From NCBI RefSeq assembly GCF_018069875.1, contig NZ_JAGQDF010000001.1, positions 558,001 to 622,000 of the forward strand: a stretch of DNA of 64,000 bases, in the 5' to 3' direction. Below are positions 24,301-47,400 of this stretch, in pieces. A program made the position numbers and the translations under genes. Position 1 is the stretch's first letter; each line of letters opens with the position of its first letter. Source of the stretch: Ideonella alba. GTDB lineage: Bacteria > Pseudomonadota > Gammaproteobacteria > Burkholderiales > Burkholderiaceae_C. The notes beneath the pieces are model-generated. The model made no database searches, was not told the DNA's origin, and was given only the letters and a program-made list of their open reading frames with translations.

Positions 24301-25976
24301 GTGCCTGGGGCGACTGGCAGCGCCTGCATGCTGACGGCGCGCTGGAGCTTGACGCCGCCAGCGACAGCTGTTCCATCACCCTGCAGGGCTGGGGCGACAT
24401 GCTCGTGCTGGCCGAACTCTACGGCCGCCCCGGCCAGCCCTGGGCCGAGCAGGCGGCTTGCGTGCGGGCGCTGGTGCTTCAGCACTTGTGGACGCCTTGG
24501 CAGACCGAAGTGCGCCGCAGGCTCACCGGCCACGTGGGCGAAGACCGTGCCAGGGACCTGTGGCGCAGCAACGGCGCGCTGGCCCTGCCCAGCGTGGGCA
24601 GCCTGGACGAAGTGCTGGGCCTGGCCCTGCTGGCCCTGCCGCGGCCCGGCCAGCAGGCCTGGCTGCGCTGGCTGCTGCAGCACGGCCTGTGGGCGGCGCT
24701 GCAGCCGGCCCTGCCCGAACTGCAGCGCCAGTTGGAAGACGGCGCCACCGCCTGGGCCGCCGCCCCGCCCTGCGGCGTGCTGCAGCACCTGCGTCGCGTG
24801 CTGCTGCTGCGCCAGCTGGATGCCGGCGCGGCCGCCCGCACCGGCGTGGAAGCCTCAGGCCAGGCGGCCCTGCTGGCCAGCCGCGATGCCGATTGCGACG
24901 CCGCCCTGGCAGCCCACTGGCGCCAGGAACAGGCCCAGGCCTTCCAGGGCCCCGGGCGCGACCTGCGCGAACGCCTGCACGCCGCCCAGCTGCTGGGCCT
25001 GCTGGGCGACAACCTGCGCTATGAAGCCGCCGCCGCGGCCAGCGGCACCGGCCTGCGCCCCAAGCCCGCCCTGTGGGCCGGCGTGGGCCAGCCCGGTCGT
25101 GACACGGCGCACCGCATCGGCGACGAGCCGGGCGATGCCCAAGCCTGGCCCAACGAGCAGCGCGCGTTCAACACACCACCGCTGCCCTACTACCAGGTGG
25201 CCCGGCTGCCCCTCACCTGCGCCGAATGGCGCTTCTTCGTGCAGGCCGGCGGCTACAACCCGCAGGCCGAGCACTGGCGGCTGGCCGGCCCGGCGGCGCA
25301 GCAGTGGCTGCAGAAGTACCTGAAGGACACCGGGTTGCGCTGGCAGGACTACCAGCCCGAAGCCCTGGATGACGCCGACTGGGGCTGGGCGCTCAACCCG
25401 GTGACCACGATCAACGTCTTCGAAGCCGTGGCCTATGCCTGCTGGGCGCGGCCAATGGTGGCAGGCACCGCCGGGGCGCCGGCCGCGCCCGGGCAGCCGG
25501 CCTGGTGGCTGTGCCTGCCCACTGAAGTGCTGTGGGAAGCCGCCCAGCGCGCGGGGGCCGATGGCCTGCCGGCCCCTGTGCCGCGCCCTTTGCCGGCCGC
25601 GCAGGCCCCGGCGGCCCAGGCCTTCAACCATGCCGCCACCGGCTGGAACCGGCCCAGCCCGGTGGGCCTGTTCAGCGCGGCCTATGGCCCGGCCGGCCAG
25701 GCAGACGGGCAGGGCAATGTGTGGGAATGGTGCGGCAATGCCTTGCCGGCGGGGCCCCGGCCCTACCACCACCCCGGTTCGCAAGACGAAGCCCAGGCGC
25801 GGTGGAACGGCGCGCTGCCCACCTTGCAGACACCCCGAGCCCTGCGCGGCGGGGCGTTCGACGTCACGGCGGCACAGTGCCGCGCCTCGTGTCGCGGCCA
25901 CAACCTCCCCGGCAGCCTCAGCAGCGGCACGGGCGTGCGTTTCGTGCGTGTTTGGCCGCCCCATTCAGAACCCTGA
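21399..25976 (+). CDS. LNF1: Lon-like protease-NACHT NTPase-FGE/lectin receptor
   Basis: Giant protein of 1525 residues. A Lon-like (S16) region has Ser250 in EGPSAG and Lys312 in HPVGAAPDK, the positions of the Lon Ser-Lys dyad. The NACHT NTPase has Walker A GQAGAGKS (Lys501) and Walker B LLLDGLNEL (about 590), followed by the winged-helix signature FRFMHQSWGEYL. A LLGLLGDNLRYE segment leads into a C-terminal FGE domain (about 1265-1525: ARLPLTCAEWRFF, GNVWEWC, ALRGGAF, GVRFVRVW). Only one of the two FGE catalytic cysteines is present, so ligand binding rather than oxidase chemistry is likely. The 3' end is a DGR-type variable region. Last gene of a three-gene operon and convergent with the Avd-like gene. 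Confidence 0.88.
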   Translation: MPSSNAPAPASPPPWPEISQDQLLALVPRDATGWPGLFGHALRLAQSGDHALRAHWLQAWPAQAAALFAVLAEQRPANNPLLWPTEETPRQQLQRVLYALFCAHDQALESERQVPPDTTPYGQTLLWRDAALQDAAGQLALNPQHPANPGERGDPAIAQVQLLVDDSLRGALRAVLRLRLVPAPGAFLAFVPAPANALTFCARSFVDALDTVTRLLRRLLAPGRAELQHMALQWNLHTPEYPLLAVEGPSAGAAFSMAALSLLQQHLDPAEPALRQALAAVALQPGLLAQAGISIAIDEHGQLHPVGAAPDKALAYQHRRPGRPLPMDAQHLFLHPDNHRELDVGLLPHVHTHPVASLPELLHEMAQAAQPRPAFRDVLAQMPLHAPPEDDDQQPPPPADQRELLDRQCEAAWHERDQVRNLRDYLIVRWAWWARHSQGELHMRFVPLALKAAAGSEGLAPTLPTVPLPGLSHLLRELHDADRGEDRAKALLLQGQAGAGKSTLLQRHEQALALDGLRRLLAGPQGAAAADDTTPIELPLYLPLASLPADVPDPLAWVRSRAHQLYPAFDELHDLLAGRPTPRWQRVQLRLLLDGLNELPEPPHTGRFQRAQQVLDRLTSELKLRLAPLLSARGHHGFDQLSQVQRGACVQVQPWPADMVCKYVARCFSQRGDNGQVSVHPSGQALIKALNQPEHRHVLDLCATPFNSAGQVRLWAGGRQKLVRHRADLYARLLREALLRELGVNHDDGSLRNPLFHDPALITPEERRFLQDPSHWEGDEVTWPDAGGALLPGLFRQALAQWLGTDRPPEERGTVEVPLNHPRDPQRSVAHWLAPATRHKWLRAVRDLGMVAEDTEGRGQRFRFMHQSWGEYLASVRLLAPTPEAMPPEPLAELQARLQQGRAFERSAEDELAHQRQQADQEWWQGAPGQAWWRSLLAQPLPLRLSDVKREIGWPEHYFAEHGDVERSAWGDWQRLHADGALELDAASDSCSITLQGWGDMLVLAELYGRPGQPWAEQAACVRALVLQHLWTPWQTEVRRRLTGHVGEDRARDLWRSNGALALPSVGSLDEVLGLALLALPRPGQQAWLRWLLQHGLWAALQPALPELQRQLEDGATAWAAAPPCGVLQHLRRVLLLRQLDAGAAARTGVEASGQAALLASRDADCDAALAAHWRQEQAQAFQGPGRDLRERLHAAQLLGLLGDNLRYEAAAAASGTGLRPKPALWAGVGQPGRDTAHRIGDEPGDAQAWPNEQRAFNTPPLPYYQVARLPLTCAEWRFFVQAGGYNPQAEHWRLAGPAAQQWLQKYLKDTGLRWQDYQPEALDDADWGWALNPVTTINVFEAVAYACWARPMVAGTAGAPAAPGQPAWWLCLPTEVLWEAAQRAGADGLPAPVPRPLPAAQAPAAQAFNHAATGWNRPSPVGLFSAAYGPAGQADGQGNVWEWCGNALPAGPRPYHHPGSQDEAQARWNGALPTLQTPRALRGGAFDVTAAQCRASCRGHNLPGSLSSGTGVRFVRVWPPHSEP
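25857..25960 (+). other. DGR-type variable region in LNF1
   Basis: Encodes the ligand-facing end of the FGE/C-lectin fold. The ten clustered variable codons (GGC CAC AAC CTC, then GGC AGC CTC AGC AGC GGC) all end in C, while flanking codons (TGC CGC GCC TCG; CCC) match LNF2 and LNF5 exactly. It is followed by the conserved block GGCCGCCCCATTCAGAAC, a CTGAACACC spanning the stop codon, and a decayed-looking hairpin (GGCCGAAGCGCGCC) about 30 bases on. Confidence 0.7.
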
Positions 25977-26035
25977 ACACCGTGGACCTTCGCATGTCAC
26001 CCCGGTGGCCGAAGCGCGCCGGCCGCCGGCCGCCG

Positions 26036-26311
26036 TCAACCCGGTGCAGGCCCGCGCGGCGGCCCGTCGCCCACCTGGCGCCGCCAACCACCCAGCGGGC
26101 GGCCCAGCGCCTCGCACAGGCCACTGAAGTGCTGGTATCGGCCATCGTTCCACCAGCGCCAGGTCCAGGCCAACTGGCCGTACTGGCGCAGCTGGTCCAG
26201 TGCCGTGTCCGCCGTGCGCAGTGCGGCGGCGCGCCCGCTGCCGCGCTGGTGGCGCGCTTCCACCAGCGCGTCATGCACGCGCATCGCCAGCGTGGCCATG
26301 TGCTGGGTCAC
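26036..26311 (-). CDS. avd: Avd-like DGR accessory protein (four-helix bundle), possibly N-truncated
   Basis: Small protein (91 residues from a GTG; ATG alternatives downstream) resembling the accessory variability determinant of diversity-generating retroelements. The C-terminal helix shows the family signature: a Y.H residue pair followed by EALGRPLGGWRRQ, compared with the usual E.GR.LGGW. The previous helix has ADTALDQLRQYGQLAW, matching the usual A...L..LR....LA pattern, and VHDALVEARHQR matches the first visible helix. Avd forms a basic pentamer that binds template RNA and the reverse transcriptase during mutagenic homing. An in-frame TGA lies eight codons before the GTG, yet the sequence on both sides (SR*PREHRPTVTQHM) looks like the family N terminus. 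A nonsense mutation is therefore possible. It follows LNF2 on the same strand; no reverse transcriptase follows. Confidence 0.68.
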   Translation of the reverse strand: MTQHMATLAMRVHDALVEARHQRGSGRAAALRTADTALDQLRQYGQLAWTWRWWNDGRYQHFSGLCEALGRPLGGWRRQVGDGPPRGPAPG

Positions 26312-26620
26312 GGTGGGGCGGTGCTCGCGCGGTCACCGCGACGGCGCGGGGAGCCGGCAGAACTGCGCTGAGCCCCGCAGGCCGGTATGGCGCGCCCATG
26401 GTCTCGGCGTGGCGCGGCCTGGCAACAGGCGGCGCCGCGGCGCATCTCGAACCGGGCCGCACCCTGGATGCATGCATCCCGGTGCGGCCCACCTTTTTTC
26501 GGGCCTGCGCTGCGGCCAGAAAGTTTTTTTTTGCGGCTCGCTTCGCGAGCCGGGCCCACCGCCACCGCCTGCGCGCTTCGGCCCTGGTGTTGGCATGCCC
26601 AGACCCCTGGTGTTCAGGGT
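26312..26620 (-). other. LNF2-avd spacer: no template repeat seen
   Basis: In a complete DGR this spacer, or the one after avd, could carry the template repeat. I find no AAC-rich copy of the variable region here. It contains the hairpin listed separately, two A/T runs and a palindromic GGATGCATGCATCC. Confidence 0.5.
26534..26552 (-). repeat. GAA-loop hairpin downstream of the LNF2 variable region
   Basis: On the coding strand of LNF2 it reads CGGCTCGC-GAA-GCGAGCCG, an 8-bp perfect stem about 70 bases past the stop. It is followed by an A-run rather than a T-run, so it is not a normal terminator for LNF2. Equivalent GAA-loop hairpins follow LNF4 and LNF5. Confidence 0.65.
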
Positions 26621-29600
26621 TCAAGGGGGCGGCCACACACGCACCAAGCGCACCCCGAAGTTGCCGTAGTGGAGGCCGGGGCGGTTGAGGAGGCGATACG
26701 AGGCGCGGCACCGTGCCGCCGCGTCGGTGAACGCCCCGCCCCGCAGGGCTCTATCGCCGCGGTCGCCATCCTCCGCCGGCTGGTTGGCCGCCACCTGGTC
26801 GGCCTCTTCATGCCAGCCGCGCGCAAGTTGCTCGTCGGTCAGGGCATTGGCGCAGAACTCACACACGTTGCCCTGGGTGTCGGCCAGGCCCAGCGCGGTG
26901 AAGCCGCGGCTGAAGCAGCCCACCGGGCTGGGGCGCGCCCAGCGGGTGTTGGCATGGTTAAACAGGGTGGCCGGCGGTGGCGTGTCGTGTGCGGCTGCGG
27001 GCTCCCCGCGCAGCGGCCCGCGCGCGGCGGCTTCCCATTGCACTTCGGTGGGCAGGGCCAGGTGGGGCCGCGACGCGGGCTGGCCGTCTGGGCCGGGGGC
27101 TTCGTCCCACTGCGCATCGGCCCATTCGGCATAGGCGCACAGGGCGCGCCAGCTGATGCCGGTGACGGGCTGCAGCGGGTTGTTGAAGTCGGCATCGTCG
27201 GCCATCGTCCACTCCCAGCGCTGGCCCTGCGGGCTGCGGCGGAACCAGCGCCATTCACCCACCGTCAGCGGCAGCCGGCAGGCCAGGAATCCGGGCAAGG
27301 GGGCCTGCCAGGCCGGTTGCTCGTCATCCTCGTCACCACCGCCAATCCAGAAGCGCTGTTCCTGGTTGCGCTCGCTCGGCCCCACCTGGGCCCACAGCAA
27401 CGGGTGGGGCCGCAGCCCTGGGCTGGCGTTCGGGCGGGTGGGCCGGATGAACTGGTAGCGGATGTTGTCGCCCAGTTCACCCAGCGCCAGCCCGGCCTGC
27501 AGCCGCAGGCGCAGCCGCTGCCCGGCGCCCTGGAAGGCGGCGGCGCGCCAGCGCTGCCAGGCGGCCTGCAGTTCAGCCGGCAGGGCCACGGCGGGCGGCG
27601 CATCCAGCAGATCCAGCAAGCCGCTGGCGCGCACGCCGGCCAGGCTGGCGGCGCCGGCATCCAGGCTGTGCAGCAGCAGCACGCGGCGCAGGTGCTGCAG
27701 CGCGGGGTCAGGCGGCCGCGGCTTGGCGCCGGCGGCAGCGTGCTCGCCCCAGGCGCCTTCGGGTTCCAGCCGGGCCTGCAGCGCCGGCAGCACGCCCGCC
27801 AGCGCCGGCCACAGCGGCCCGGTAGGCTGGCCGGTGGGCTCGTCCGGGGCGCCGGCCCGGGGCGCGGCAGGGCCATCGACCGCCAGCAGGGCCTGCAGCC
27901 AGGCCCGCAACCGCGGCAGCGGCAGGCCGAGCAGCGCCAGGCCCAGCACCTCGGCGCCTTCGGCCGCGGGCGGCTCTTCCAGGCGGCCTTGCTGGCCCTG
28001 CAGGGCCTCAACCGCCTCGTCGCCCAGCAGGTCGCGCAGCGTCTTCCAGAACTTGTCCCGGAACACCGGGCGCAGGCGCTGCAGCACCAGGAACTGCCAG
28101 CCCGCCGCGCCGGCCTTGCGCGGGTTTCGCCAGTCTTCAGCCTGGCCCAGGTTCAGCGCGGCGCTGACACCGAAGGTGTCGCCCCACAGGCCCAAGTTCG
28201 CCCTGCACCAACGCTGGCCGTCTTTCGTGATGTCTCGCCAGGTGCCGTCGCCAAAGAACTCTGGGAAGTCGCTGACCACTTGCCGGCTCGCCAGTTCCAT
28301 TTCCCGCGCATCGCGCGGCGGTGGGTTGTAGCAGTCGTTGAGTAAGTCCTCCCAGGGCACGGGCAACCCGTCCTTCAGCAGCCCGGCCCACACCGCCTGC
28401 GGCACGGCCTGCCAGGCCTGGCTGCCGTCCTGGGCCAGGGCGCTGATCTCGGCTTCGTCGCTGTCGTGCGGCAGCGCCGGCAGCCACAGCCGCCGCAGCA
28501 GCCCGGCGCTGGCCGGCGGGTTGGTGGCCAGCAGGGCGCAGCTGGCCAGGAATTCGCCCCAGGCCTGGTGGTCGAATGCCCAGGTGCTGCAGGCGTCGTC
28601 CACCTGCACCACGCCCAGGGCGCGGGCGGCGCGGGCGAAGCGCTTGCGCAGCGCCTCTTCGGGGTGGGTCAGGGCGGCGTCGGTGCTGCGGTGCAGCCAG
28701 GGGGCCACGCTGTCAAAGGGCTGCTCACCGGCGGTGCGGTCGGTGCCGGCGGCGGCCGGGCCGGCATCGGCGGCCCACTGGGCCAGGGCCTGGCCGGCCA
28801 GGCTGCGCACCAACTGGCCCTTGAGCGTGGTCACGCTGGGCGGGCCCTGTTGCTGCCAGCGTTCGTCGTCTTCAATGGCGGCGCAGTCTTCGCTGGTGAG
28901 CAGCACATCGTCGGCAGGGCCCACGCCCAGGGCGCTGTCGTCCAGCGCGTTGTCCGCCTCGCGGGCCTCTTCGTGGCCGGATTCCCGGCCGCGGGCGCGG
29001 CGCAGCCGCTGCCACAGCCAGGCGTTGAACAGCGCGGCGCGGTCGCCCGGCAGGGCCTTCAGGCCGCTGTCCATCAGTTCGCACTGGGCGGCCAGCTGCT
29101 GCGGCCGGCCGCACAGGCTGAGCGCGCCCTTCACCGCAGCCAGGGCCTTGAAGCGGGCTTCCACCTCGCCCGGGAACCACTGGCCCAGGTAGGCCTTGAT
29201 GTGGCTGTCGGTCCAGTCCTGCACCTCCACCTTCAGCACCTTGAACTCTCCCAGCGCGTCGGCGTGCTGGGGGCGAATGCTCAGCAGCAGCGGCAAGCCG
29301 GCAGGGCCGCGCAGCAGCGCCTGCATGGCGCCCACCACCTGGCGGGCGCGCGCCGGGCGCTGGCCGGCATGGGCCACCCGCAGTTCGTTCAGGCCGTCCA
29401 GCAGCACGCGGGCCTTCAGGCCGCGTTCGCGCGCCCAGCTGCCCTGGCCGGCCAGCAACTGCAGCAGTTCGGGCGGCAGCTGGTGGCTCAGCTGTTCGCG
29501 CAGCCAGGTGTCGGGTGACTCCTGCGGCAGCAGCTTGTTCAAGGCCAGGTACACCGGCAGTTCATGCGGCGGCGGCTGGCCGGCGTCGTCTGCCGTGGGC

Positions 29601-31156
29601 ACAAAACTGCCGGCATGCCACTGCAGCAGCCGCCGTGCGGCGCGCTGCAGGTGGTGACGCAGCAGGGTGCTCTTGCCGGCACCGGGTTTGCCGCGCAGCA
29701 GGTAGCCGTTTTCCTTCATCGTGCTGTCGCGCTCGAGCAGCAGTTCGTGCAGGCTTTGGTACTTCCTGTCCTTCTCTTTCAGCGGCACCAGGTCCAGCGG
29801 CACAAAGCGCTGCGGCAGGCTGGGGTGCATGGCCTGAGCGCATTGCGCCCAGCAGCGCAGCAGGTACTGGCGCAGTGACAGGGCGGGCTGCTGGGCCACC
29901 TGCCGCAGCAGGCCGGGGCTGGGGCTGAGCGGGGCGTCACCGGGCGCCACCAGCAGGTCCCACAGCTGCTGCTGCTCGGGACTCAGCCGGTCGGCCTGGC
30001 TGGCCAGGACCTGGGCGGCCTCCAGCACGCTGTAGTAGGGCTGGATGGCCACGCGGCCGGGCGCGGCCTGGCCGGCGCCCACGGGCACGTCTTGCAGGTG
30101 GCTCACGCCCAGTGCCAGCGGGGCCTCGGCGCCATCGTGGGCTGCCTGCGCAGCGATGGCGTGGGCCAGCGGCAGCAGCGCCTCGCTCTTCTCGCCCAGG
30201 CCACCCACCGGCAGCATCTGCCAGCCCGGCCCCAGCGCGGCCGTGAACGCGCAGCGGCGCAGGTGGCGTGGTTCCAGCGCCATCAGGTCGTGTTGCCAGC
30301 TGGGGGGCGCCGCGGCGCGCAGCAGCCACAGCGCACCCAGCGCCAGGCTGGCGCCGGCAGACGGGCCTTCCAAGGTGAGCAACGGCTGGCCGTCGCGGCG
30401 GTACAGGTCCCAGGCGATGGCGGTGTCCTGCAGCGGCCAGGCGCCGTTGTCGCGCAGGTCGGCCAGCAGCGCCTGGCGCAGCTGGGCCAGGGTGTCGTCC
30501 CATTCGGTGTCCACGCGCAGCAGCAGGCTGCTGGCGGGCGCCGGCACCAGGCACAGGCGGGCCCCGGGTTCAGGCACCAGGCGCAGGCTCAGCTCGGCCT
30601 GCACGCCTTGCCGAAGCGCCGTGTTCACCAGCACCACCGGCAGCGTGCAGGCGGGGCCCGCCTGCGGTGGCAACCAGCTGTGCCACGGGGTGCGCGCGGC
30701 CGGGTTGGCGGCCTGCGGGTCTGCCGCCGGCCCGCTGCGCACTGCCGCCTGCAGCCAGCGCGCGGCAATGCCCATGGCCTGTGCCAGATGCTGTTGCGTG
30801 ACGATGCTGAGCGGCGCGGTGTCGGGCCCGATGCCCAGCACCTGGGGCGGGGTGTTGGTGTGCAGGTCATGGCCGGCCAGCAGCGCATGCACCACCCGCT
30901 GCACCTGGTGCAACGGGCGCTCCACCCACAGCCGCGGCCGGCCTTGGGCATCGGTCAGCGGCGGCAGCTCAGCCACGATGGGCAGATGCGCGTCCAGCAG
31001 CGCCGCCGCATCGGTGGTGTGGGCCGGCAGGTCGGCCACGAAGGGCAGCAGCTGCGGCGGCAAGGCGCCTTCGCGTGCCAGCAACAGGTGCTGCCAGCCT
31101 TCGGCGCTGAAGCCGGGCAGGCGGGCGATGAAGTCCTGGATGTCTTCGGGGCGCAT
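26621..31156 (-). CDS. LNF2: Lon-like protease-NACHT NTPase-FGE/lectin receptor
   Basis: Giant protein of 1511 residues; start at MRPEDIQDFIARLPGF rather than 21 codons upstream. Its Lon-like region is the most Lon-like of the six: Ser266 in LEGPSAGASLALGAL and Lys323 in LPVGGLGEKSEALLPLA. NACHT has Walker A GKPGAGKS (Lys495) and Walker B RVLLDGLNEL, then WAFDHQAWGEFLAS. HEAT-like LALGELGDNIRYQ leads to a C-terminal FGE domain (about 1290-1511: CRLPLTVGEWRWF, QGNVCEFCAN, ALRGGAF, FGVRLVRVWPPP). Only the second FGE cysteine is kept. The gene ends in a DGR-type variable region and the Avd-like gene follows on the same strand. It is divergent from LNF3. Confidence 0.88.
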   Translation of the reverse strand: MRPEDIQDFIARLPGFSAEGWQHLLLAREGALPPQLLPFVADLPAHTTDAAALLDAHLPIVAELPPLTDAQGRPRLWVERPLHQVQRVVHALLAGHDLHTNTPPQVLGIGPDTAPLSIVTQQHLAQAMGIAARWLQAAVRSGPAADPQAANPAARTPWHSWLPPQAGPACTLPVVLVNTALRQGVQAELSLRLVPEPGARLCLVPAPASSLLLRVDTEWDDTLAQLRQALLADLRDNGAWPLQDTAIAWDLYRRDGQPLLTLEGPSAGASLALGALWLLRAAAPPSWQHDLMALEPRHLRRCAFTAALGPGWQMLPVGGLGEKSEALLPLAHAIAAQAAHDGAEAPLALGVSHLQDVPVGAGQAAPGRVAIQPYYSVLEAAQVLASQADRLSPEQQQLWDLLVAPGDAPLSPSPGLLRQVAQQPALSLRQYLLRCWAQCAQAMHPSLPQRFVPLDLVPLKEKDRKYQSLHELLLERDSTMKENGYLLRGKPGAGKSTLLRHHLQRAARRLLQWHAGSFVPTADDAGQPPPHELPVYLALNKLLPQESPDTWLREQLSHQLPPELLQLLAGQGSWARERGLKARVLLDGLNELRVAHAGQRPARARQVVGAMQALLRGPAGLPLLLSIRPQHADALGEFKVLKVEVQDWTDSHIKAYLGQWFPGEVEARFKALAAVKGALSLCGRPQQLAAQCELMDSGLKALPGDRAALFNAWLWQRLRRARGRESGHEEAREADNALDDSALGVGPADDVLLTSEDCAAIEDDERWQQQGPPSVTTLKGQLVRSLAGQALAQWAADAGPAAAGTDRTAGEQPFDSVAPWLHRSTDAALTHPEEALRKRFARAARALGVVQVDDACSTWAFDHQAWGEFLASCALLATNPPASAGLLRRLWLPALPHDSDEAEISALAQDGSQAWQAVPQAVWAGLLKDGLPVPWEDLLNDCYNPPPRDAREMELASRQVVSDFPEFFGDGTWRDITKDGQRWCRANLGLWGDTFGVSAALNLGQAEDWRNPRKAGAAGWQFLVLQRLRPVFRDKFWKTLRDLLGDEAVEALQGQQGRLEEPPAAEGAEVLGLALLGLPLPRLRAWLQALLAVDGPAAPRAGAPDEPTGQPTGPLWPALAGVLPALQARLEPEGAWGEHAAAGAKPRPPDPALQHLRRVLLLHSLDAGAASLAGVRASGLLDLLDAPPAVALPAELQAAWQRWRAAAFQGAGQRLRLRLQAGLALGELGDNIRYQFIRPTRPNASPGLRPHPLLWAQVGPSERNQEQRFWIGGGDEDDEQPAWQAPLPGFLACRLPLTVGEWRWFRRSPQGQRWEWTMADDADFNNPLQPVTGISWRALCAYAEWADAQWDEAPGPDGQPASRPHLALPTEVQWEAAARGPLRGEPAAAHDTPPPATLFNHANTRWARPSPVGCFSRGFTALGLADTQGNVCEFCANALTDEQLARGWHEEADQVAANQPAEDGDRGDRALRGGAFTDAAARCRASYRLLNRPGLHYGNFGVRLVRVWPPP
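26635..26735 (-). other. DGR-type variable region in LNF2
   Basis: Coding-strand variable codons are CTC CTC AAC CGC, then GGC CTC CAC TAC GGC AAC, every one ending in C. They are embedded in constant codons TGC CGC GCC TCG, CGC and CCC identical to LNF1. The downstream block is shortened (ATTCAG lost) but CTGAACACC past the stop is kept. Confidence 0.7.
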
Positions 31157-31260
31157 GCGTGGACCTGTGGTTCTGGCGCCTGGCGCGGGGGCAGGGCGGC
31201 CGGCCCATTCTGCCGTCACTCCTGCGCGTTATCGGGCGCAGCGGGCGCACCATGCCTTTA

Positions 31261-31421
31261 GGCGACGCTGAACAAGTCGCCGCGGATGGGCGCGCCCTGA
31301 TTCGGGATGGGCTGCAAGGCGCACACCACAGCCATAGCCCGGGCTATGGCGAGGATGTGCAACGCCGCAGACCGCCCGAAGCAGGGATGCGCACGCCGCG
31401 AGGGGCTTGTTCAGCGTTGCC
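31261..31421. mobile_element. 161-bp MITE between LNF2 and LNF3
   Basis: Terminal inverted repeats GGCGACGCTGAACAAG and (reverse complement of the right end) GGCAACGCTGAACAAG differ at one position of 16. The element is flanked on both sides by TTTA, or, moving one base inward, TTAG, which fits the YTAR targets of IS5-group elements. It encodes no transposase. An internal 18-bp perfect palindrome CCATAGCCCGGGCTATGG lies at 31332-31349. It occupies the promoter region shared by the divergent LNF2 and LNF3. Confidence 0.75.
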
Positions 31422-31464
31422 TTTAGCATCGGGCCTGCCCGCTTCACCTGCGGCCATCGGCCCG

Positions 31465-34400
31465 ATGCACCACTTCCTCCACCCCTCCGTACTTGAGAAC
31501 CGCCTGATCAACCAGGCGGTGGATGTGGCGCTGACCGCCACCCACGAGCGCCCGGCGCTGCCGTCTGAGATCGCCTGGATTCACCTGGGCCGCGCGTTCC
31601 CGCCGTGGCTGCTGCTGTGCCACCAGGTCTACTTTGAGAGCGCCCACCGGCAGGCGGGGCAGGGCATGGATGCCCGCGTGGCCCACGCGCTGCAGGCCCG
31701 CCAGGGTGCGCTGCAGATCACCGGCTTTGCCGCCGACGACGGTGATGCCCACTGCCGGCCTGCCCACGCAGGCGGCACGCACTTCACCCCCGCCCAGGTG
31801 GCTTTCCTGGCCGCACAGGCTGCCGCGGGCCAGCCCGAACCCGACGACCTGCAGGCGGCCCTGCTGGCGCGCTGCTGTGTGCAGGGCGGCCTGCCGCCGC
31901 CGGACCTGTCGCTGCGCGTGCTGCTGGTGGGCGGCTGGCAGTACGCCCACGGCGCCAGCCAGCCCGCGTGGCTGGATCTGTGGCGCGTGCCCGAACCTGG
32001 CCGCCGCCTCACCCAGCCGCTGAGCCTGGTGCGCGCCCCCGGTGCCGTGCTGCTGCCGGGCGATGCGGTGTTTGAGACCAGCCTGCAGCGCGTGCAAGCC
32101 CTGCTGCGCGCGGTGCTGCACCCGGATGCACCCAGCCTGGCCTTCAGCCTGCGCCCGGCCACCGTGCCCGGTCAGGACGAGGCCACGCCGCTGTCCGCCA
32201 TCACCGGTGCATCGGCCAGTGTCAGCCTGGCCCTGGGTGCGCTGTGGCTGCTGCAGGACCATCTGCAGGCCCCGCACGCCGCCTTGCAGGACCAGCTGCA
32301 AGACCTGGCGCTGGAACGCCTGGTGGTCAGCGCCGCGCTGGGCGAGCTGCCGGACCCGGCGGCCGGCGTGCCGCCCTGGCCCAGCGTGCACCCGGTGGGC
32401 GGCATGCCGCACAAGCAGGCCCTGTTCGAACTGCTGGACGACGCCGACCGCGACGATGGCGGCACAGGCCTGCTGCTGGGCACTGCCGCCCGGCAGCCCG
32501 GCCTGGCGCACGATCCCAGCCATGCCGACCCCGAAACCCTGCCCGCCTTCATCGAGCGCCTGTGCCGCACCGCCGGCAGCGGCCTGGCCAGCCCGGAAGC
32601 GCGCCGCTTGCACCACCTGCTGGTGCAGGACGATGCCGACATTGCCGACACCCAACTCATCGAAGCCGTGCGCGCCCAGCCGCGCCCCGCCACGCTCAAG
32701 GCCTGGCTGGTGTGGCGCTGGGCGCAGCGTGCCGGCGGGCCGGATGCCGCCTTCAGCAGCAGCCCGCACCGCCTGGCGCAGCGCTACACCCAGCTGACCC
32801 TGGCTTCCAGTGAGAAGGAAAGCAACGACCCGAGCACCCAGCCCGAAAAGCCCCAGCCACCCCAGCCCTACCGCCTGGAGCAACTGCTGGACGACCCTGC
32901 GCACGCCCACCACGCCGGCTGGTTGATCGACGCCGCGCCCTTTGCCGGCAAGTCCACCCTGCTGGCCTGGCGCGAAATGGGCGCCGCCCGCCGCGCGCTG
33001 CAGGCCCTGCGCGGCGTGGCGCCGCTCACGCCCTACGCTGCCGACACGCCCAGCCGGCCGGTGGACCACATCGAGGTCTGCGTGCTGCTGCCGCTGCGCG
33101 AATGGAAGCCGCAGCCGGCCGACGAAGCCGGCCTGCGCCAGCAGTTCGAGCAGTTCCTGTTCGACAGCGCCCCGCTGCAGCGCTGGTGGCCGCGCCAGGC
33201 GGCACCCGGCCAGCCGCCGCAAGCGGCGCCGCCGCTGCCCTGGCTGCGCCACGGCATCCGCCTGCGCCTGTGCCTGGACGGCCTGAACGAATTCAGCGCC
33301 GCCACCGATGAGCTGCGCCAAGCCGCGCTGCACGCCCTGTGCAACAGCCTGGCCCTGCGCCAGGCCTTGCTGCTGCCGCCGATCTTCACCGTGCGTGAAC
33401 GCGAGCGCAGCCTGCTGCCCCACAGCCCGCTGCACCCCGGCTGGCGGCTGGCCCAGGCCAAGGTGGAAGCCTGGTCGCTGGACGCCTGCGCGGCCTACAT
33501 CGACCAGGCCGGCCTGCAGGCCGACGCGGCCCAAAGCCTGAAGCGGTTTCTGCAACCGCCCCAGGGCGCTGACGCCCCACCCGACTGGGCCGATCCCTAC
33601 GCCCACTTCCGCAGCTTCTGCACCACGCCCGGCTTCCTGGCCGCGCAATGCACCCTGCTGCGCTGGCGCCCCGGCCGCGCCCCGGCCACGCGGCGCAGTG
33701 ACCTGTTCAGCGCGCTGCTGTGGTACGCCCTCAACCAGGACCTGAAGGATCCTGTCCCCACCACCCTGCTGCCCGCGCACCTGAAGGGCGACGACGCCCT
33801 GAAGGCCGCCGAGGCCGACCACTGGCGCCTGCAAGACCGCAGCATGGGCCTGCTGGTGGACCAATTGCTGGCCACCGCCGCCGCCATGGTGGACCAGCGC
33901 GGCCTGCCCGAGTACGACGTGTCCGCCGACCGCGCCGCCCCCGGCCTGCCGCTGCACAGCGAGCTGCGCCAGCAATGGCTGGACGCCGTGCGCCGCCTGG
34001 GCCTGGCCACGCTGCAGGCCGGGCGCTTTGCCTTCGTGCACCAGCAGTGGCATGAGTTCCTGCTGGCCCTGGCCCGCGAGCGCGGTGCCGACCTGCCCGA
34101 AAACCTGGCCGCGCCCGCGCTGAACCCCAGCAGTGAGGACCTGCTGGCGCATCTGCAGCAGGAGGATGCGCGGCTGGAGCTGCCCACCGTCTCACCCCAC
34201 CATGAGCGCTTGCGCTTCACCGCCGAACTCTCGGGCGACCCGGTGGCCTGGATACGCCGCCTGCTGCCGCTGAACCTGCCGCTGGCCGCGCGCATCGCCA
34301 TCGACCACCAGCACCTGCTGGAACCCGACGGCCCCTACCCCAACACCTCTCCCGGCGACCGTCGCCGCGGCCCGCACGGCGTGCTGCAACTGCTGCGCCA

Positions 34401-35559: not shown

Positions 35560-35560
35560 G

Positions 35561-37506: not shown

Positions 37507-37799
37507 GGTGGTCGTCCTGGGTGGCTGAGGTGCTTGGCATTGTCAGGCGCCTGGGCTGGATGGCCCTGCATCGGCGTCCACAGGATTGGGGACGAAAAAC
37601 GCCTGCAGCCCGGATGCCGCTGACGCCACGAACCATGTCCGCCCGGGGCGGCCATGGGGCCACCACTGCGGCCCCTGCGCGTTGGCGCGCATCACCCAGG
37701 CCACTGCGGTCCTGCCCCTGCAGTCCGCCGCCGGCCGACTGCGCATTCCAACTGCACAATGGATTCACGCTCGCACCACGCCCAGTCCCACGCACACGC

Positions 37800-40700
37800 A
37801 TGAGCCCCGAGAAAGCCCTGCACCTGCTGTACCTGAACGCTGAAGCACACACCGAGTGGCACCGGTCACTGGTGCTGCGCCAGGGCACCCAGCCGCCGGC
37901 CTTGCTGGATGTGGCGCGCCTGGCCGCCACCCACGCGGACAGTGCGGCACTGGATCAACTCCGGCTGGCCACGAACAGCCTGCTGCACACCTTTGATGGC
38001 TGGACCTGCGACGAAGCCCCGGCTGCGCTGGCCCTGCGCGCGGTGGTCCAGGTGCTGTGGGGGCAGGGCGTTGAAACCGCCCCGCCCGACGACCTGTTCA
38101 CGCCCCACCCCGCCGTGGCCGCCATCCGCGACGAGTGGCTGCGCCAGGCCTCAAGGATCCACCACACCCTGGACCATCACCCCGCTCTGCGCTGGCAAGC
38201 ACCGCTGAACCTGGGCGCGCAGGCGCAGTGCGAACTGCCGGTGCTGCTCAGCGGTGCCGGGCCGCACCAGGGTGTGGTGGCCAGCCTGCGCCTGCGCCTG
38301 GTGCAGCAGGCCGATGCCCATCTGGCCCTGGTGCCCGCGCCCACCAGCGCCTTGCTGCCGATGACGCCCTTGTTTGCCGACACCTTGCGTGCGGTGACCC
38401 GGGCCCTGCGTGCCACGCTGCTGCCGCCGCCCGCGGGCAGTGCACTGCCGCCGCTGCAGCACATCGCCATTGCCTGGGACCTGGCGCCTGCCAACCCGCA
38501 GGTGGACATGCCGCTGGTGGACGGCAACTCGGCCGGTGCCGCCTATGCGGTGGGTGCGCTCAAGCTGCTGCAAGACGCCGCGCCCGCGCCATGGCGCCAG
38601 TGGCTGCGCCAGGTGTCGCGCAGCAGCCTGCGGCGCACCACCGTCACCGCCGCGCTGGGCAGCGATTGGGCCCTGTGCGCCGTGGGCCAGGTGGACAACA
38701 AGGCCGGAGCCCTGCTCCCCCTGGTGCGCGCCCTGGCCGCCATGAAGGGCCTGCCCCAGCGCCTGTATGTGGCCGCCGAGCAGACCGAATACCTGCTGCC
38801 GCTGGAGGAGCAGGCGCCGGAACCGGTGGGCCAGGCCAGCATGGCCGACCTGCTGCAGGCCTTGGCCGACGCCTGCGCGCCGCTGACGGACCACCAGCAC
38901 GCCCTGCTCCAGGACCTGCTGGCCGAAGCCTCGGTGCCGCCGCAGCCCAGCAGCCGGCTGGAAGCCGTGAAGACGGCCGACGCACCCACGCTGCAGCAGG
39001 CCCTGCTGCGCAGCTGGGCGCAGTGGGAGGCAGACAACCGCGTGCAGGCCACCTTTGTGGCGCTGGCCGTGCGTGACAACGCGCTGGGCGAAGACGAGCC
39101 CAGGATCCAGGGCCAGGACTTCAACGGCCTGCCGCAGCTGCTGCGCGAATTCGACCCCCGCGGCCTGCACGACGCCTACGTGCTGACCGGCCCCCCCGGC
39201 GCCGGCAAGACCACCTTGCTGCGCCACCACCTGCAGCAGCTGTGCCGCCAGGCTCTGCAGGACGAAGACCGCGGCCACACCCCGGCCGAGCTGCCACTGC
39301 TGGTGCCGCTGGCTGAGCTGCCCGAAGAAGAGGCCGATCCGGTGGCCTGGCTGCGGCGCCGCCTGCGCCTGGAGGCCGCGCCCGAAGAACTGCAACAGTT
39401 GCTGGACCCGCAGCGCCCCCGCGCGCAGCTTCCCCAGCCCCGGCTGCTGCTGGACGGCCTGAACGAGCTGCCCATGGCCGACCCGCGCCAGCGCCCCGAC
39501 CGCGCCGCCGACGTGGTGCGGGCCTTCCGACACGCGCTGCCGGCCGCGCCGCCCCTGCTGCTGTCGGTGCGCCCCCACCATGTGGGCGACATGCCCGGGC
39601 TGCGCCTGCTGCGGGTGGATGTGCAGCCCTGGGGCGACGACGGCATTGAGCGCTACCTGCAACTGCGCTGTGCGCCCGACACCGGCCACCGCCCGGGCGT
39701 CTGGCAAGAGCACCTGGCCGCCCTGCGGGCCGTGCCCGGCGCCTATGCGCTGTGCAGCACGCCGCTGAACCTGGCCGCCTATGCCGACCTGCTGGAAGCC
39801 GGCTTCACCCAGCCGCCCGGTGACCGCTCGGCCCTGTTCGCCGCCTGGCTGTGGCAGCGCCTGCGCCGCGCGCTGGGCCTGGTGCCCGGCCACGCCCTGG
39901 TGCCGGCCCACGAGGCGCTGCTGAAGACCGCGGGCCTGCTGAGCAGCGATGACCTGGACGCCATCCGCCACCCCAGCGCCTGGCGCAGCACCCGGCTGCG
40001 CCAACTGCCGCTTCAGGGCCAGCTGGTCAGCAGCCTGCTGCAGCAGGCCGAAGACCAATGGTGGGCCGACCTGGACACCGGCCGCCCCGCCCACGAGCGC
40101 GGCGGCGTGGCCGTGAAATGGAGCCAAACCGCGCTGTGGCTGCGCGACACCCGCTACCCGCCCCACGATGCGCGCCACGACGCCCTGCGCACCGCCTGGG
40201 GCGCTGCCGTCAGTGTGCTGGGTCTGGCGGTGGTGGACACGGTGCACGACAGCTTCAAGTTCAGCCATCAGGCCTGGGGCGAATGGCTGGCCTCCATGCG
40301 CCTGCTGCCCGGCGACCCGCCGCCGCTGCCGCAGCCTGCAGGCCACTGGCTGCAGCGCGCCTGGCATCGGCTGAAGCCCCAGCCGGCCCCGGCGCCGCTG
40401 CACCCCCACCTGCAGCGCCTGCTGGCCGCGCTGGAACGCAGCCGCTGGCCGCAGCCCGGCACACGGCGCGATGTGGATGAACTCAAGCACCAGGAACGCC
40501 AGGCCGATGCCGGCTGGCAGGCGGTGCCGCCGCAGGTGTGGCAGGAGTTGCTGGCCAGCGGCGTGGAGATCGACACCGACGACCTCTTGCGCGCCACCGT
40601 GGGCCTGCCGGCGGGGGCTGACCGGCAGGCCTTGCTGCAGCGGGCGCAGACGCTGCGGGCTTGGTGGTTCGAGCGGTTGATCTTCGAGCCCATCGACGGC

Positions 40701-42350
40701 ACCACCCGCTGGAAGGTGAATCTGCGCCGTTGGGGCGACAACACCCAGCTGCGCAGCGTGTACGGTGCCCAATGGGCCAACCGGCCCACCGCTTGGCAGG
40801 TGTTGATTCACCAGCAACTGTGGACGCCGGTTGAGGCGGCCTGCTGGGCCTGGCTGGCCCAGCGCCTGCCCCAGGGCACCTTGGCGCGCATGCAGCAGGA
40901 GCTCGGCGGCCTGGCCCTGCCGCCGCCGGGTGAGCTGGACGAGGTGCTGGGCCTGGCCCTGCCCGCTGCGGCCCAGCCCGCCGCCTGGCTGGCGTGGCTG
41001 CTGTACCACGGCCACTGGCAGCCCTTGCGCGCGGCCCTGCCGGCCCTGGTGCAGCAGCTGGAAGGCCCGCCGGCGCGCACCTGGGCAGATCCCCACCCGG
41101 TGCTGCAGCACCTGCGCCGCCAACTGCTGCTGACGCTGTCAGACACCGGCCGCAGCGCCCGCCGCCCGCTGCGGCGCGCCGGCCTGCTGACGCTGCTGCC
41201 GCAGGCCATTGCCGGCTTGCCGCCGGCCCTGCAGGCGGCCTGGCAGCGGCAATGGCATGGCGCCCTGCGCGGCCAAGGGGTGGACCTGCGGCTGCGCTGG
41301 CTGGCGGCTGAGCTGCTGGGCCTGCTGCGCGACAACCTGCGCTATGCCTGGTGCAGCGCAGCCGAACCTGCCGCTGGCCCCGCAGGCGCCTGGCCCGCGC
41401 GCAGCGGCCTGCGCCCGGTGGCGCCGCTGTGGGCCGGCCTGGGCACGCCGGGCGGCCCACCGGCGCGCTACCGCATCGGCAGTTGGCTGGGCTTTGCAGA
41501 TGAGCAACCCGCCTGGACGCTGCCGCTGCCGCACTTCCAGATGGCGCGGCTGCCGGTGACAGTGGCTGAATGGCGCTGCTTTGTGGACGGCGGCGGCTAT
41601 GCCAGCGCCGACGCGCCCTGGTGGGTGGCGGCCGGCCCGGCGGCGCAGGGCTGGCTGCGGCGCGCGCTGGCGGGGCAGCCTGTGGGCCAGGCCTACCGGC
41701 CCTGGGCCTTGGGCGACCCGCGCTACAACAGCCCGCTGCAGCCCATGGTGGGCATCACCCTGTTCGAAGCCCTGGCCTATGCCGCCTGGGCCGATGCCTT
41801 CTACCGGGCCGAGCAGCAAGCCGAGCGCGAGGCCGGCCTCACCGTGCTGGAACTGCGGCCGCCGACCGAGCTGCAGTGGGAAGCCGGCGTGCGCGGCCCG
41901 CGGCGGCCGGGCCAGGGCTGGCGCACCGGGCCGTTGCACTTCAACCACGGCCGCAGCCGCTGCAACGGCCCCACACCGGTGGGCCTGTTCAGCGCCGCGG
42001 CATCGGCCACCGGCCTGCTGGACGCTGCCGGCAACGTGTGGGAATGGTGCAGCAATGCCCTCGCAGCCGATGTGCGGGCGCAAGGCTGGCGCGGCCCTGG
42101 CCCCCGCCACAGCGCGGGCCAAGCTGCCAGGCTTGATGATGAAGACAGCTTCAGAGCCCTGCGGGGCGGTGCGTTCCGCAACTCAGCCACGCTCTGCCGC
42201 CCTTCGTGCCGCCTCCGCTACCACCCCGACGACCGCTACGGCGGCATTGGCGTGCGTTTGGTGCGTGAGTGGCCGCCCCATTCAGAACACTGGACACCTG
42301 CAGCCGTGGCGGAACCACCCGGTGGGACGGGCGCGCCGCCGGTGGCCTGA
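37800..42350 (+). CDS. LNF4: Lon-like-NACHT-FGE receptor with altered stop
   Basis: Protein of 1516 residues starting MSPEKALHLLYLN; the frame allows 93 more residues upstream of poor quality. Lon-like region: Ser244 in DGNSAGAAYAVGAL, Lys301 in VGQVDNK. NACHT: TGPPGAGKT (Lys470), LLLDGLNELP, FKFSHQAWGEWLAS. LLGLLRDNLRYA precedes the FGE domain (about 1248-1495: MARLPVTVAEWRCF, GNVWEWCSNA, ALRGGAF, GVRLVREWPPHSEH). The conserved CTGAACACC carries a G, CTGGACACC, so the usual TGA is lost. Translation continues 20 residues (WTPAAVAEPPGGTG...) to the next stop. It has a DGR-type variable region and a downstream GAA-loop hairpin. Confidence 0.88.
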   Translation: MSPEKALHLLYLNAEAHTEWHRSLVLRQGTQPPALLDVARLAATHADSAALDQLRLATNSLLHTFDGWTCDEAPAALALRAVVQVLWGQGVETAPPDDLFTPHPAVAAIRDEWLRQASRIHHTLDHHPALRWQAPLNLGAQAQCELPVLLSGAGPHQGVVASLRLRLVQQADAHLALVPAPTSALLPMTPLFADTLRAVTRALRATLLPPPAGSALPPLQHIAIAWDLAPANPQVDMPLVDGNSAGAAYAVGALKLLQDAAPAPWRQWLRQVSRSSLRRTTVTAALGSDWALCAVGQVDNKAGALLPLVRALAAMKGLPQRLYVAAEQTEYLLPLEEQAPEPVGQASMADLLQALADACAPLTDHQHALLQDLLAEASVPPQPSSRLEAVKTADAPTLQQALLRSWAQWEADNRVQATFVALAVRDNALGEDEPRIQGQDFNGLPQLLREFDPRGLHDAYVLTGPPGAGKTTLLRHHLQQLCRQALQDEDRGHTPAELPLLVPLAELPEEEADPVAWLRRRLRLEAAPEELQQLLDPQRPRAQLPQPRLLLDGLNELPMADPRQRPDRAADVVRAFRHALPAAPPLLLSVRPHHVGDMPGLRLLRVDVQPWGDDGIERYLQLRCAPDTGHRPGVWQEHLAALRAVPGAYALCSTPLNLAAYADLLEAGFTQPPGDRSALFAAWLWQRLRRALGLVPGHALVPAHEALLKTAGLLSSDDLDAIRHPSAWRSTRLRQLPLQGQLVSSLLQQAEDQWWADLDTGRPAHERGGVAVKWSQTALWLRDTRYPPHDARHDALRTAWGAAVSVLGLAVVDTVHDSFKFSHQAWGEWLASMRLLPGDPPPLPQPAGHWLQRAWHRLKPQPAPAPLHPHLQRLLAALERSRWPQPGTRRDVDELKHQERQADAGWQAVPPQVWQELLASGVEIDTDDLLRATVGLPAGADRQALLQRAQTLRAWWFERLIFEPIDGTTRWKVNLRRWGDNTQLRSVYGAQWANRPTAWQVLIHQQLWTPVEAACWAWLAQRLPQGTLARMQQELGGLALPPPGELDEVLGLALPAAAQPAAWLAWLLYHGHWQPLRAALPALVQQLEGPPARTWADPHPVLQHLRRQLLLTLSDTGRSARRPLRRAGLLTLLPQAIAGLPPALQAAWQRQWHGALRGQGVDLRLRWLAAELLGLLRDNLRYAWCSAAEPAAGPAGAWPARSGLRPVAPLWAGLGTPGGPPARYRIGSWLGFADEQPAWTLPLPHFQMARLPVTVAEWRCFVDGGGYASADAPWWVAAGPAAQGWLRRALAGQPVGQAYRPWALGDPRYNSPLQPMVGITLFEALAYAAWADAFYRAEQQAEREAGLTVLELRPPTELQWEAGVRGPRRPGQGWRTGPLHFNHGRSRCNGPTPVGLFSAAASATGLLDAAGNVWEWCSNALAADVRAQGWRGPGPRHSAGQAARLDDEDSFRALRGGAFRNSATLCRPSCRLRYHPDDRYGGIGVRLVREWPPHSEHWTPAAVAEPPGGTGAPPVA
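42171..42272 (+). other. DGR-type variable region in LNF4
   Basis: Variable codons CTC CGC TAC CAC, then GAC GAC CGC TAC GGC GGC, all ending in C. Fixed codons are TGC CGC, TCG, CGC and CCC. The block GGCCGCCCCATTCAGAAC follows and continues past the ancestral stop with ACACCTGCAGCC, shared with LNF6. Confidence 0.68.
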
Positions 42351-44383: not shown

Positions 44384-44443
44384 TCCGCAGGCCACCGCTG
44401 GCGCGTTCAACCTACCGGGTAGGCACGCCACCTCTGCTGGTGT

Positions 44444-47400
44444 TCAGTGTTCTGAATGGGGCGGCCACACACGCACGACACGCACCCCGAAGAAGCTGCT
44501 GAGGCTGTTGGGGTGGTCGTGGTCGCGGAACGAGGCGCGGCACTGTGCAGCCGTGCTGCCGAACGCCCCGCCCCGCAGGGCTCGCCAACTCCTTTGATCG
44601 TCGACTTTGGCAGGCACCTGCGCCGCCCGTTGCCAGCGCTCTTCGCGCCACCCGCCCTTGCGCTGCTCATCGCTGAGCACGTTCGAGCACCACTCCCAGG
44701 TGTTGCCCTGTGCATCGAAGAGCCCCGTCGGCGTGGCCCCCAGGCTGTGGCTGCCCACCGGGGCGGTGGTGCCCAGGTGCATGTCGTGGTTGAAGTCCAG
44801 CGGACCGGGCGAGCGGGTGCCGCTGCCGTGGGCCCAGCCGGCGGCACGTGGGGCGCCTTGCAGGTCCGGGCCCTGCACCGCGGCTTCCCACAGCACTTCG
44901 GTGGGCACGGCCAGCGGGGGCCTCTCGGCCACTTTCCGGCCCTGCTGCTGCCAGGCCACCGCGTCCAGCGCATCGGCCCACGCGGCATAGGCCAGGGCTT
45001 CATGCGCCGTGATGCCCACCATCGGCTGCAGCGGGTTGGTGAAGCGCGGGTTGTCCCAAAGCCAGGGCTCTTTCTGGAGGCCGCCGTTGTCGCGCAGCCA
45101 GCCCTGAGCAGCCTGACCGGCCTTCACCCACCAAGGGGCTTCCATCTCATAGCCGCCGCCGGCCAAGAATTGCTGCCATTCCTGTACCGTAACGGCATAG
45201 CGGGCCGTCTGGAAGGGCTTCAGGTCCACCGTCCAGGTTGGGCGTTCCCACTCTTGCCCGCCGCTGTCGCTGCCGATGCGGTAGGCGGTGAGCTCTTTGC
45301 TGCCGGGCTGGCCGCAGCACAGCCAGTGCGGCTGCTTCAGGCGCAGGCCTGCGATGGGCCAGCCATCCACCTCGCCCGACACGTATTCGTAGCGCAGGTT
45401 GTCGGCCAGTTCGCCCAGCAGCAGCCCGGCCTCAATGCGGTGGCGGATGTCGCGGCCCTTTCCGCCCAGGAAGTACTGCCACTCCTGCGCCCTGTGCGCA
45501 TCCAGTTCCTCACCAAAGCCCGCCATGTGCTTGGCCAGCGCTGCCTGGGTGTCATCCTCGCCCACCACGCAACCGGCGCGCAGCCGCTGATGAACCCGCT
45601 CGCCAGCGTCCATGCTGCGCAACAGCAGCACCCGGCGCAGGTGTTGCAGTTCACAGTTCGGCGGCTGGCCACTCTTGCCGATGAAGGCGCCTTGGGGTTC
45701 CAGGTCATTGCGTACATCCACCGCCACGCGGGCTGCCAGCGCCAGGTTGTCTTCACGCAGTAAGCGGCGCAGCCAGGCCGCCCGGTCGCTGGCCATTTCC
45801 ACGACGAAGCGCATGCGCTCCTGCTGCGGCGTCACCGCGGGCATCTGGATCCTGGCGCGTTCGACCGTCTCCAGGTGCCTCACCAAGCCCGCCTCGTCCG
45901 GAGGATCCAAGGCGGGTGGGGTCAGGTCGGGCAGGTCTGGGCGCTCCAGCCCGCAGCCCAGCGCCGCAAAGAACTCCAGCCACTGCTGGTGCACAAAGGC
46001 GAAGTGGCCGTCGAAGGTCTCGGCCGCCAGGCCCAGGGTGGTGACGGCCTGGCGCCAGGCTTCAGCCTGCTCGCCCTGCAGGCCCGGCGGGGCGGTGTCG
46101 GCCGGTGCTTCCACCAGGGGCTGGCTCTTCGCGTCCTGCATGGCGTCGGCCTGGCGGCGCAACTGGTCGATCAGCGTGCCCGGCTGGGCGGGCAGCCGCC
46201 AGTTCCGCTTGCGCGCCTCTTCCAGCGCACGCGTGCCGCGCAGGCGGCTGGGCAGCAGCCACTCGGGCAGCTGGCCGCCGCGTTCGTCCAGGCAGTGCCA
46301 CAGCAGTGCCAGGAACAGCGTGCCGCGCTGGCGCGGTGGCAGCAGGTCGGGCCAGCGGCGCAGCAGCGTGCACTGTGCGGCCATGATGCCGGGGCTGCGA
46401 CAGAAGCGCTCGAAGGGCGTGTCGTCGGCATGGCCGTGCGCGTCGTCCAGGTCCAGGCGCAGGGAATCATGCAGGCGCTGGGCGGCGGTGGCGTCCAGGT
46501 CGCGGCGCTGGATGTACTCGTGCCAGTCGCTGCGCCGCCAGGGTTGCAGCACGGCTCGCTGGGCGCGCCATTGCGGGTCGGCCTGCGACACCAGGTCCAG
46601 CCCGTTTTCCAGCTCGCGCACGGTGAAGACCGGCGGAAGCAGCAAGCCCTGGTGCTGCTGCAGCCAGGTGCAGATCAACGCCATCACGGCGCGGCGCTGG
46701 TCCATGCCGGCTGTGGGCAGCTCATTCAGGGCGTCAATCAGCAAGCGCCAGCGCAGCGGGCATTCGGCGGCAGGCTGCTGCAGGGCCTCGCCCAAGGGCG
46801 GCAGGCCGGGGCTGTGGCTGTGGATGAAGGCGATGAAGGCGTCGATCACGGCCTGCCGGGCTGCCGCGTCGGGCTGGTGCGGCAAGGCCGGTGGCTGAAA
46901 CGCGCGCATCGGCAGGAAGACGCTGACCTCGCCCCAGGGCTCGCCGCGGCGGCGGCGCTGCAGCGCCTGGCGCGCGGTGTCGCACTCGCGGGCGGCCAGC
47001 AGCGTGGTCTTGCCGCAGAAGGGGGGCGACTCGATGCACCAGGCCGGCTCGCGCTGGTAGGGGTCATCGTGCAGCAGGTGGCGCAGTTCCAGCGGCTGGT
47101 CGGCCAGGGCCCGGCGGGCGGCGTCGTCCGCCTGGTCGCGGTAGGTGTCGGGTGCCTTCAGCTGCAGGCGCTGGTAGTGCTGGTCCAGGCGCACCGGGTC
47201 GCCAAAGGCGCTGTGGCTGCCGCTGGCGCGCTTGGCATGGCGCCACACCAGGAAGGCCTTGATGCTGGTGGGTTTGTCGCGGCAGCGGGCCACGCGTTCC
47301 AGCAGGTCCATGTCGGTGAAGGGCTCGCTGCGGGTGGACAGGTGGCGGTGCAGGGTGCGGGCGTCGGCATCCAGCCCGCCGTTGCATTCGTCGGCAATGC

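Follow-up and report, generated by a model that had tools for sequence, protein, structure and literature searches.

Results

A cluster of FGE genes with a common 3' stretch

The DNA analysed here, referred to as the window, is a stretch of 64,000 nucleotides of Ideonella alba (contig C11, positions 558001-622000 of a draft genome of 5.51 Mb in 36 contigs; G+C 70%). It carries six genes, LNF1 to LNF6, whose products match the FGE-sulfatase profile. A search of the genome with this profile returned 14 places, of which 11 lie on C11 at 583-672 kb. We numbered these genes F1 to F11 by position; F1-F6 are LNF1-6, and F7-F11 lie past the window. Nine of the 11 (F1, F2 and F4-F10) have a stretch of about 140 bp at the 3' end in common, which we interpret as the variable region (VR) of a diversity-generating retroelement (DGR). 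The four VR-bearing genes beyond the window (F7-F10) are located at C11 628, 639, 653 and 662 kb. The match of F11, at 671.6 kb, to the FGE profile stops at position 194 of 255, and near this gene lies a weak VR relic of 38 bp (E 0.023).

At the DNA level, the stretch shared by the nine genes runs from GCC CTG CGG to slightly beyond the stop codon (..TGAACACC). In a codon alignment of LNF1, LNF2, LNF4 and LNF5, fixed codons agree within this common stretch and clustered codons differ. The initial annotation of the window had described the fixed codons TGC CGC GCC TCG, CGC and CCC as identical in these four genes, which holds for five of the six; GCC is CCT in LNF4. It had also reported that all variable codons at these ends have the form NNC, and our recount of the ten core variable codons reproduced this (40/40). 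When two variable codons nearer to the 5' end were added, 48/48 were NNC and, again as annotated, none was NNG (0/48), although NNG is common in these genes: among 3,283 upstream codons of the same four genes the third base was C at a frequency of 0.428 and G at 0.421. For these twelve codons, which were selected by eye after alignment, the NNC excess corresponds to a binomial p of ~2×10−18; 29 of the 48 would be expected to be NNC from the amino acids, and the chance of all-C given the amino acids is ~10−15. Across the nine genes, the third base was C in 103 of 108 such codons, and three were NNG. Inclusion of the variable codons 8, 11, 16 and 30 gave 53/64 NNC in the four genes (p 5×10−11) and 116/144 in the nine.

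All nine genes have C-N-C at codon 19, and eight of them have C-N-N at codon 26; codon 16 reads T-N-C or T-N-T. These patterns point to CAC and TAC in a template. At 24 positions inferred to derive from A in LNF1, LNF2, LNF4 and LNF5 (96 bases), we counted 38 A, 35 G, 18 T and 5 C. LNF6 has the same VR in a drifted form, and that of LNF3 is shortened and decayed.

Adenine rule and proposed copying independent of gene kinship

Randomization at template adenines with faithful copying elsewhere predicts constant columns free of A and variable columns that contain A. We defined a column as constant when at least seven of the nine genes agreed. None of the 93 constant VR columns had A as consensus (upstream: 39/321), and 31 of 33 variable VR columns contained A (upstream: 241/408). 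The adenine rule was assessed by proxies, namely column composition and the templates from two other genomes described below.

Constant VR columns were 89-97% identical among F1, F2, F4, F5, F7, F9 and F10, compared with 36-62% upstream protein identity. Because constant columns were picked for agreement, these levels are inflated, and the argument is instead the missing correlation between VR and upstream kinship (all nine genes: Mantel r −0.045, p 0.62). The sister genes F8 and F9 are 75% identical upstream with VRs 84% alike; for F9 and F10 the values are 39 and 97%. Where two genes encode the same amino acid, the codons agreed in 582 of 762 cases in the VR versus 2,557 of 4,257 upstream, and VR agreement exceeded upstream agreement in 34 of the 36 gene pairs. 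The number of the 93 constant positions off consensus was one in F10, two each in F2, F5, F7 and F9, four in F1, six in F4, 14 in F8 and 16 in F6. The low counts are suggestive of recent copying for most genes, and the high counts of drift for some.

Probable DGR loci with the same layout in other genomes

Among relatives of the FGE part, 80 of 115 (top identity 37%) were retained and, with one viral locus, 81 loci were scanned. An open reading frame (ORF) resembling Brt of Bordetella phage BPP-1 occurred in four of them (L089 and L096, E<1×10−40; L083 and L140, weak). L089 was the only one in which an adenine-specific repeat pair passed our filter; none passed it in L096. In L089, from an Anaerolineae metagenome-assembled genome, the Brt-like reverse transcriptase (RT) adjoins an A-rich copy; between this copy and the VR there are 15 differences, 15/15 of them at template A.

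Four of 398 other genomes of the order gave an FGE profile match at E≤1×10−20. G597, of the same order, carries locus L177, in which an RT adjoins a template. Comparison of this template with one VR gives 18 mismatches, 18/18 at A, and with the second VR 15 mismatches, of which 14 are at A. The two L177 targets are a TIR-NACHT-FGE gene and an FGE gene whose NACHT falls below cut-off. After removal of one extra codon column of F8 and F9, the L177 and L089 templates align without gaps to the VR frame of the C11 genes, and the variable columns here cover 20/27 and 23/33 of their adenines, respectively (p 2×10−8 and 3×10−9); non-A template bases coincide with 11 and 8 variable columns, respectively. 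Two complete-looking DGRs elsewhere have the same VR layout, one of them in the same order and on genes of NACHT-FGE type. RT matches to L177 were also seen elsewhere in G597 (C86, C116 and C142) and in G050 (C1:3517374); more than one DGR may therefore be present in G597, and a single one in G050.

In G656, of the same genus as G597, locus L178 (C10:205001-225000) has two VR-bearing FGE genes and RT fragments, one of them with two stops; no template was found in these 20 kb. It is probably another decaying DGR. In G631, locus L176 (C12; gene ends at 3327 and 11576) has two related genes of ~1,380 aa whose 3' ends are unlike, with no NNC rule by eye, and a GAA-loop hairpin 3' of the second. 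The L177 RT had no match in G631.

Search for a diversifying machine

Searches of the 5.51-Mb assembly did not reveal a complete DGR. The initial annotation had proposed a search of the genome for a template next to a DGR-type RT and had named the lack of either as refuting its reading; neither was found in the assembled genome. BLAST of the genome with the LNF2 VR (40 of 73 candidates scored) returned the nine genes, the next best match having E 0.03, and a genome-wide search for a 24-base AAC pattern with up to three mismatches gave no match. The island, whose sequence contains no N, had no RT relic (tblastn E 0.24 or worse) and no AAC-rich window. PF05635, used as the model for the accessory protein Avd, matched nothing in the genome at E≤1. 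This model does not detect every accessory protein.

A search with RVT_1 gave three matches in the genome, P0002, P0001 and a fragment on C36, none of them a convincing DGR-type RT; Brt and the L089 RT as queries reached only these. P0002 was rejected because it is a retron type VI RT (250.7 bits), and its phage relative is retron-named too. The piece near the start of C36, a fragment of a group II intron (189 bits), was rejected as well; it was the sole genome match of the L089 RT. P0001 is nearest to Brt but weakly classed, and has PYGFVQSP where Brt has GSLTSQ. The SQ of the Brt stretch matters. No VR-like repeat lies near P0001, since the genome-wide VR search gave none. P0002 and P0001 are about 2 kb apart (L004:8384-9145 and 11090-11992; C22:476-480 kb).

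We also ran the LNF2 VR against 59 relatives, among them 15 congeners, with two short matches, and 398 others of the family (up to two candidates scored per genome), with eight; the two sets overlap. The ten matched stretches, read by eye, had no FGE motif and no AAC run. The LNF2 VR had no match in plasmid records. With the LNF5 protein, phage records gave one weak FGE match covering 11% of the query. Of 21 stretches with the pattern in viral contigs, one codes for a relative (28%), and the exact template-like 24-mer was not found there.

Hairpins downstream of the VRs

In phages, VRs are followed by hairpins with a stem of 7-10 bp and a four-nucleotide GRNA loop, according to the available sections of PMC3240598. 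F2, F5, F9 and F10 are followed by hairpins with stems of 7-9 bp and GAA or GCA loops, 87-95 nt past the last VR codon counted, and F4 by one with a shorter stem. With a neutral definition (stem of at least 7 bp, loop of 3-5 nt), hairpins occurred at five of ten gene ends (F2, F5, F7, F9 and F10, that of F7 being of different sequence) versus 83 of 799 windows of 200 nt. Hairpins with a GNA loop, a definition made after the motif had been seen, occurred ten times in 160 kb; half of these follow F2, F4, F5, F9 and F10, at similar distances. In L177, VR2 is followed by a 9-bp hairpin with a GTA loop, VR1 by one that is imperfect by eye, and another lies 3' of the template. Some of these hairpins may be terminators.

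Protein architecture and neighbouring genes

The VR is carried by the FGE fold, which is of C-lectin type. NACHT was above cut-off in LNF2 and LNF4 and 0.4 bits below it in LNF1; LNF3, LNF5 and LNF6 had none at E≤0.001. F7 had sub-threshold AAA_16/nSTAND matches only, and F9 no NACHT or STAND match. The N-termini of LNF1-6, F7, F9 and F10 contain a conserved Ser and Lys with Lon-like motifs that Pfam does not detect. The proteins probably combine a Lon-like part, NACHT and an FGE sensor; for the Lon-like part the evidence is weak. The N-termini may represent a Lon-like effector, joined to NACHT-FGE, that has not been described before. No Lon-type effector in such receptors was found in the literature searched, which comprised the accessible parts of works including PMC7159879, PMC8195603 and PMC10907252, and few subscription papers.

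Positions of the receptor genes, VRs and hairpins in the window are listed in Table 1. ThiF/E1-type genes are interspersed with the receptor genes (window 42551-43951, minus strand, and 52993-54453, plus strand; L061:13783-15435); the last is slightly below the Pfam cut-off, and that at 52993-54453 is matched by PADLOC E1-E2 models too. An Rv2525c-like glycoside-hydrolase-like gene (35917-37506, minus strand) sits between LNF3 and LNF4. Two genes immediately 5' of LNF1 (18868-21362, plus strand) had no match at E≤0.001 in Pfam, NCBIfam or PADLOC.

Table 1. Receptor genes, putative VRs and hairpins, in window coordinates
Feature	Position	Strand	Basis
LNF1 (F1), FGE gene, NACHT marginal, N-terminal stretch Lon-like	21399..25976	+	ORF; FGE 80.5 bits; NACHT 26.3 bits, cut-off 26.7
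VR of LNF1, shared stretch continuing beyond the stop codon to ACACC	25839..25981	+	
LNF2 (F2), NACHT-FGE gene	26621..31219	-	ORF and profile matches
VR of LNF2	26609..26749	-	
Hairpin 3' of LNF2, stem 8 bp, loop GAA	26534..26552	-	
LNF3 (F3), FGE gene, ORF start uncertain, no NACHT at E≤0.001	31159..35559	+	
VR of LNF3, shortened and decayed	35455..35559	+	
LNF4 (F4), NACHT-FGE gene	37521..42350	+	ORF and profile matches
VR of LNF4, CGC CCT TCG variant; reading frame extends beyond VR	42156..42298	+	
Short hairpin, GAA loop, directly 3' of LNF4 stop codon	42354..42374	+	
LNF5 (F5), FGE gene, no NACHT at E≤0.001	44444..48577	-	
VR of LNF5	44439..44581	-	
Hairpin 3' of LNF5, stem 9 bp, loop GAA	44363..44383	-	
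LNF6 (F6), FGE gene, no NACHT at E≤0.001	48516..52757	+	
VR of LNF6, drifted, 16/93 constant columns off consensus	52620..52762	+	

Discussion

Our best reading is that these genes are orphaned DGR targets, diversified until recently, whose machine has been lost or resides on an unassembled replicon. It is very probable that the VRs were made by a DGR with no machine in the present assembly; loss of that machine is the moderately probable course, and its survival elsewhere a less probable one. In this scenario, transcripts of a template repeat containing codons of the AAC, TAC and CAC types would have been reverse-transcribed with random bases opposite adenines. The cDNA would have taken the place of the VR in every LNF gene, leaving non-adenine positions as in the template and adenine positions random. 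Such replacement would have reached at least seven paralogues, later than the divergence of their gene bodies. The machine (RT, template and any accessory protein) would most likely have been lost recently, leaving a frozen receptor set whose VRs are now drifting at different rates. The products would probably be intracellular receptors with a Lon-like effector, a NACHT/STAND switch and a sensor of FGE-type C-lectin fold. The initial annotation had proposed that the genes are, or recently were, hypermutated: the adenine rule, the template-like copying and the matching DGRs elsewhere support the second wording well, whereas the first is not supported, no machine having been found in the assembly.

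Several observations weigh against this interpretation. Neither a template nor a convincing DGR RT nor Avd turned up in the assembly, and adenine specificity was assessed by proxies. P0001, on C22, whose class is weakly determined (retron model 53.8 bits, CRISPR-RT model 53.6 bits), is matched by Brt at 33% identity (E 6×10−8). The p-values are rough, constant columns were selected for agreement, and the upstream controls are under ordinary protein constraint. In the gene pairs F4/F6 and F8/F9, VR codon identity is below that upstream. Adenines of the shared tail beyond the stop codon are mostly invariant. The variable codons 8, 11 and 30 mostly lack a third-base C; if a DGR was at work, codons 8 and 11 would stem from template ACG and CAG, and their third base would then not be C. 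F8 and F9 have one extra VR codon in common, and F4 and F8 both have CCT at a fixed codon, so that one single template is insufficient for all VRs. A strict hairpin is missing after F1, F3, F6 and F7, and that of F8 is imperfect by eye.

The machine might instead persist outside the assembly, on a plasmid, in a prophage or in an assembly gap, and act in trans, so that the receptors would still be diversified. Six VRs deviate from consensus at only 1-4 of the 93 constant positions, the assembly is a draft in 36 contigs, and the accessible text of PMC10907252 proposes trans action for Thiohalocapsa loci. We nevertheless consider this alternative possible but doubtful, given a completeness estimate of 99.83%, no plasmid record matching the LNF2 VR, no viral contig with an exact template-like 24-mer, and VRs of LNF6, F8 and LNF3 that are drifting. 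A specific form of it, in which a retroelement on a mobile replicon acts in trans on at least nine chromosomal Lon-like/NACHT/FGE receptors and rewrites the repertoire only during its presence, seems unlikely.

Gene conversion among clustered paralogues is ordinary and, together with positive selection at binding residues, could have made the pattern without any DGR; VR constants are homogenized across genes, and the variation lies at the sensor end. However, it predicts neither a fixed third-base C with free first and second bases, nor A-free constant columns, nor a match to the adenines of two independent templates, and we regard it as highly improbable. Chance NNC codons in a fast-evolving loop, as might arise from a G+C content of 70% and codon usage (43% of upstream codons are NNC), are extremely improbable as an explanation, because NNG is equally common upstream (0.421) yet occurs at 0/48 and 3/108 of the chosen sites in four and nine genes, and the all-C probability in the four genes is ~10−15 given the amino acids.

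If they are orphaned DGR targets, the C11 genes would form a large cluster of NLR-like receptors diversified by a retroelement for which no resident diversifier was found. They would offer a natural experiment on a hypermutable repertoire after loss of its mutator, showing in which receptors the binding surface is retained and which ones decay. Together with the loci of the same order, they suggest a series from active to orphaned, with G597 complete-looking, G656 retaining RT remnants and G631 having no match to the L177 RT. If the Lon-like reading is true, a protease type would be added to the outputs of such receptors.

Comparison with known systems

The Bordetella phage BPP-1 DGR, as described in the available sections of PMC3240598, resembles the present genes in having its VR at the 3' end of a gene for a C-lectin fold. 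A hairpin lies 3' of that VR, as it does after five of the ten genes here; the loop has four bases, GRNA, compared with three here. The BPP-1 target is a phage tail protein, and Brt, Avd and the template repeat are present, none of which was found here.

There are precedents for the parts, in Thiohalocapsa and in Treponema isolates without RT and template. The accessible portion of PMC4891356 describes FGE-fold targets in Treponema denticola, as here, and isolates with no RT and no template that retain two to six target genes (AL-2 has six). The T. denticola targets are dispersed in the genome and number at most seven where the DGR is intact, compared with nine clustered VRs here. Other T. denticola isolates have intact DGRs (PMC4891356, same portion); the relatives searched here with the VR gave no real match.

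Further related systems are the clade-5D DGR loci with NACHT/STAND-CLec targets, in Thiohalocapsa PB-PSB1 and others. As far as the text available from PMC10907252 goes, they too have a C-terminal FGE/CLec sensor with VR, several targets and incomplete loci, and, like some of the genes here, a central STAND NTPase; for those of Thiohalocapsa action in trans has been proposed. In contrast to the present cluster, that text gives one full-set locus per class (here no set was found in the assembly) and commonly two targets, compared with nine clustered VR genes here; the N-terminus here is putatively Lon-like. L177 of G597 has a TIR-NACHT-FGE and a NACHT-FGE target, the VR frame of the C11 cluster, and a hairpin with a GTA loop after one VR; an RT and a template, which were not found for the C11 cluster, accompany its two targets.
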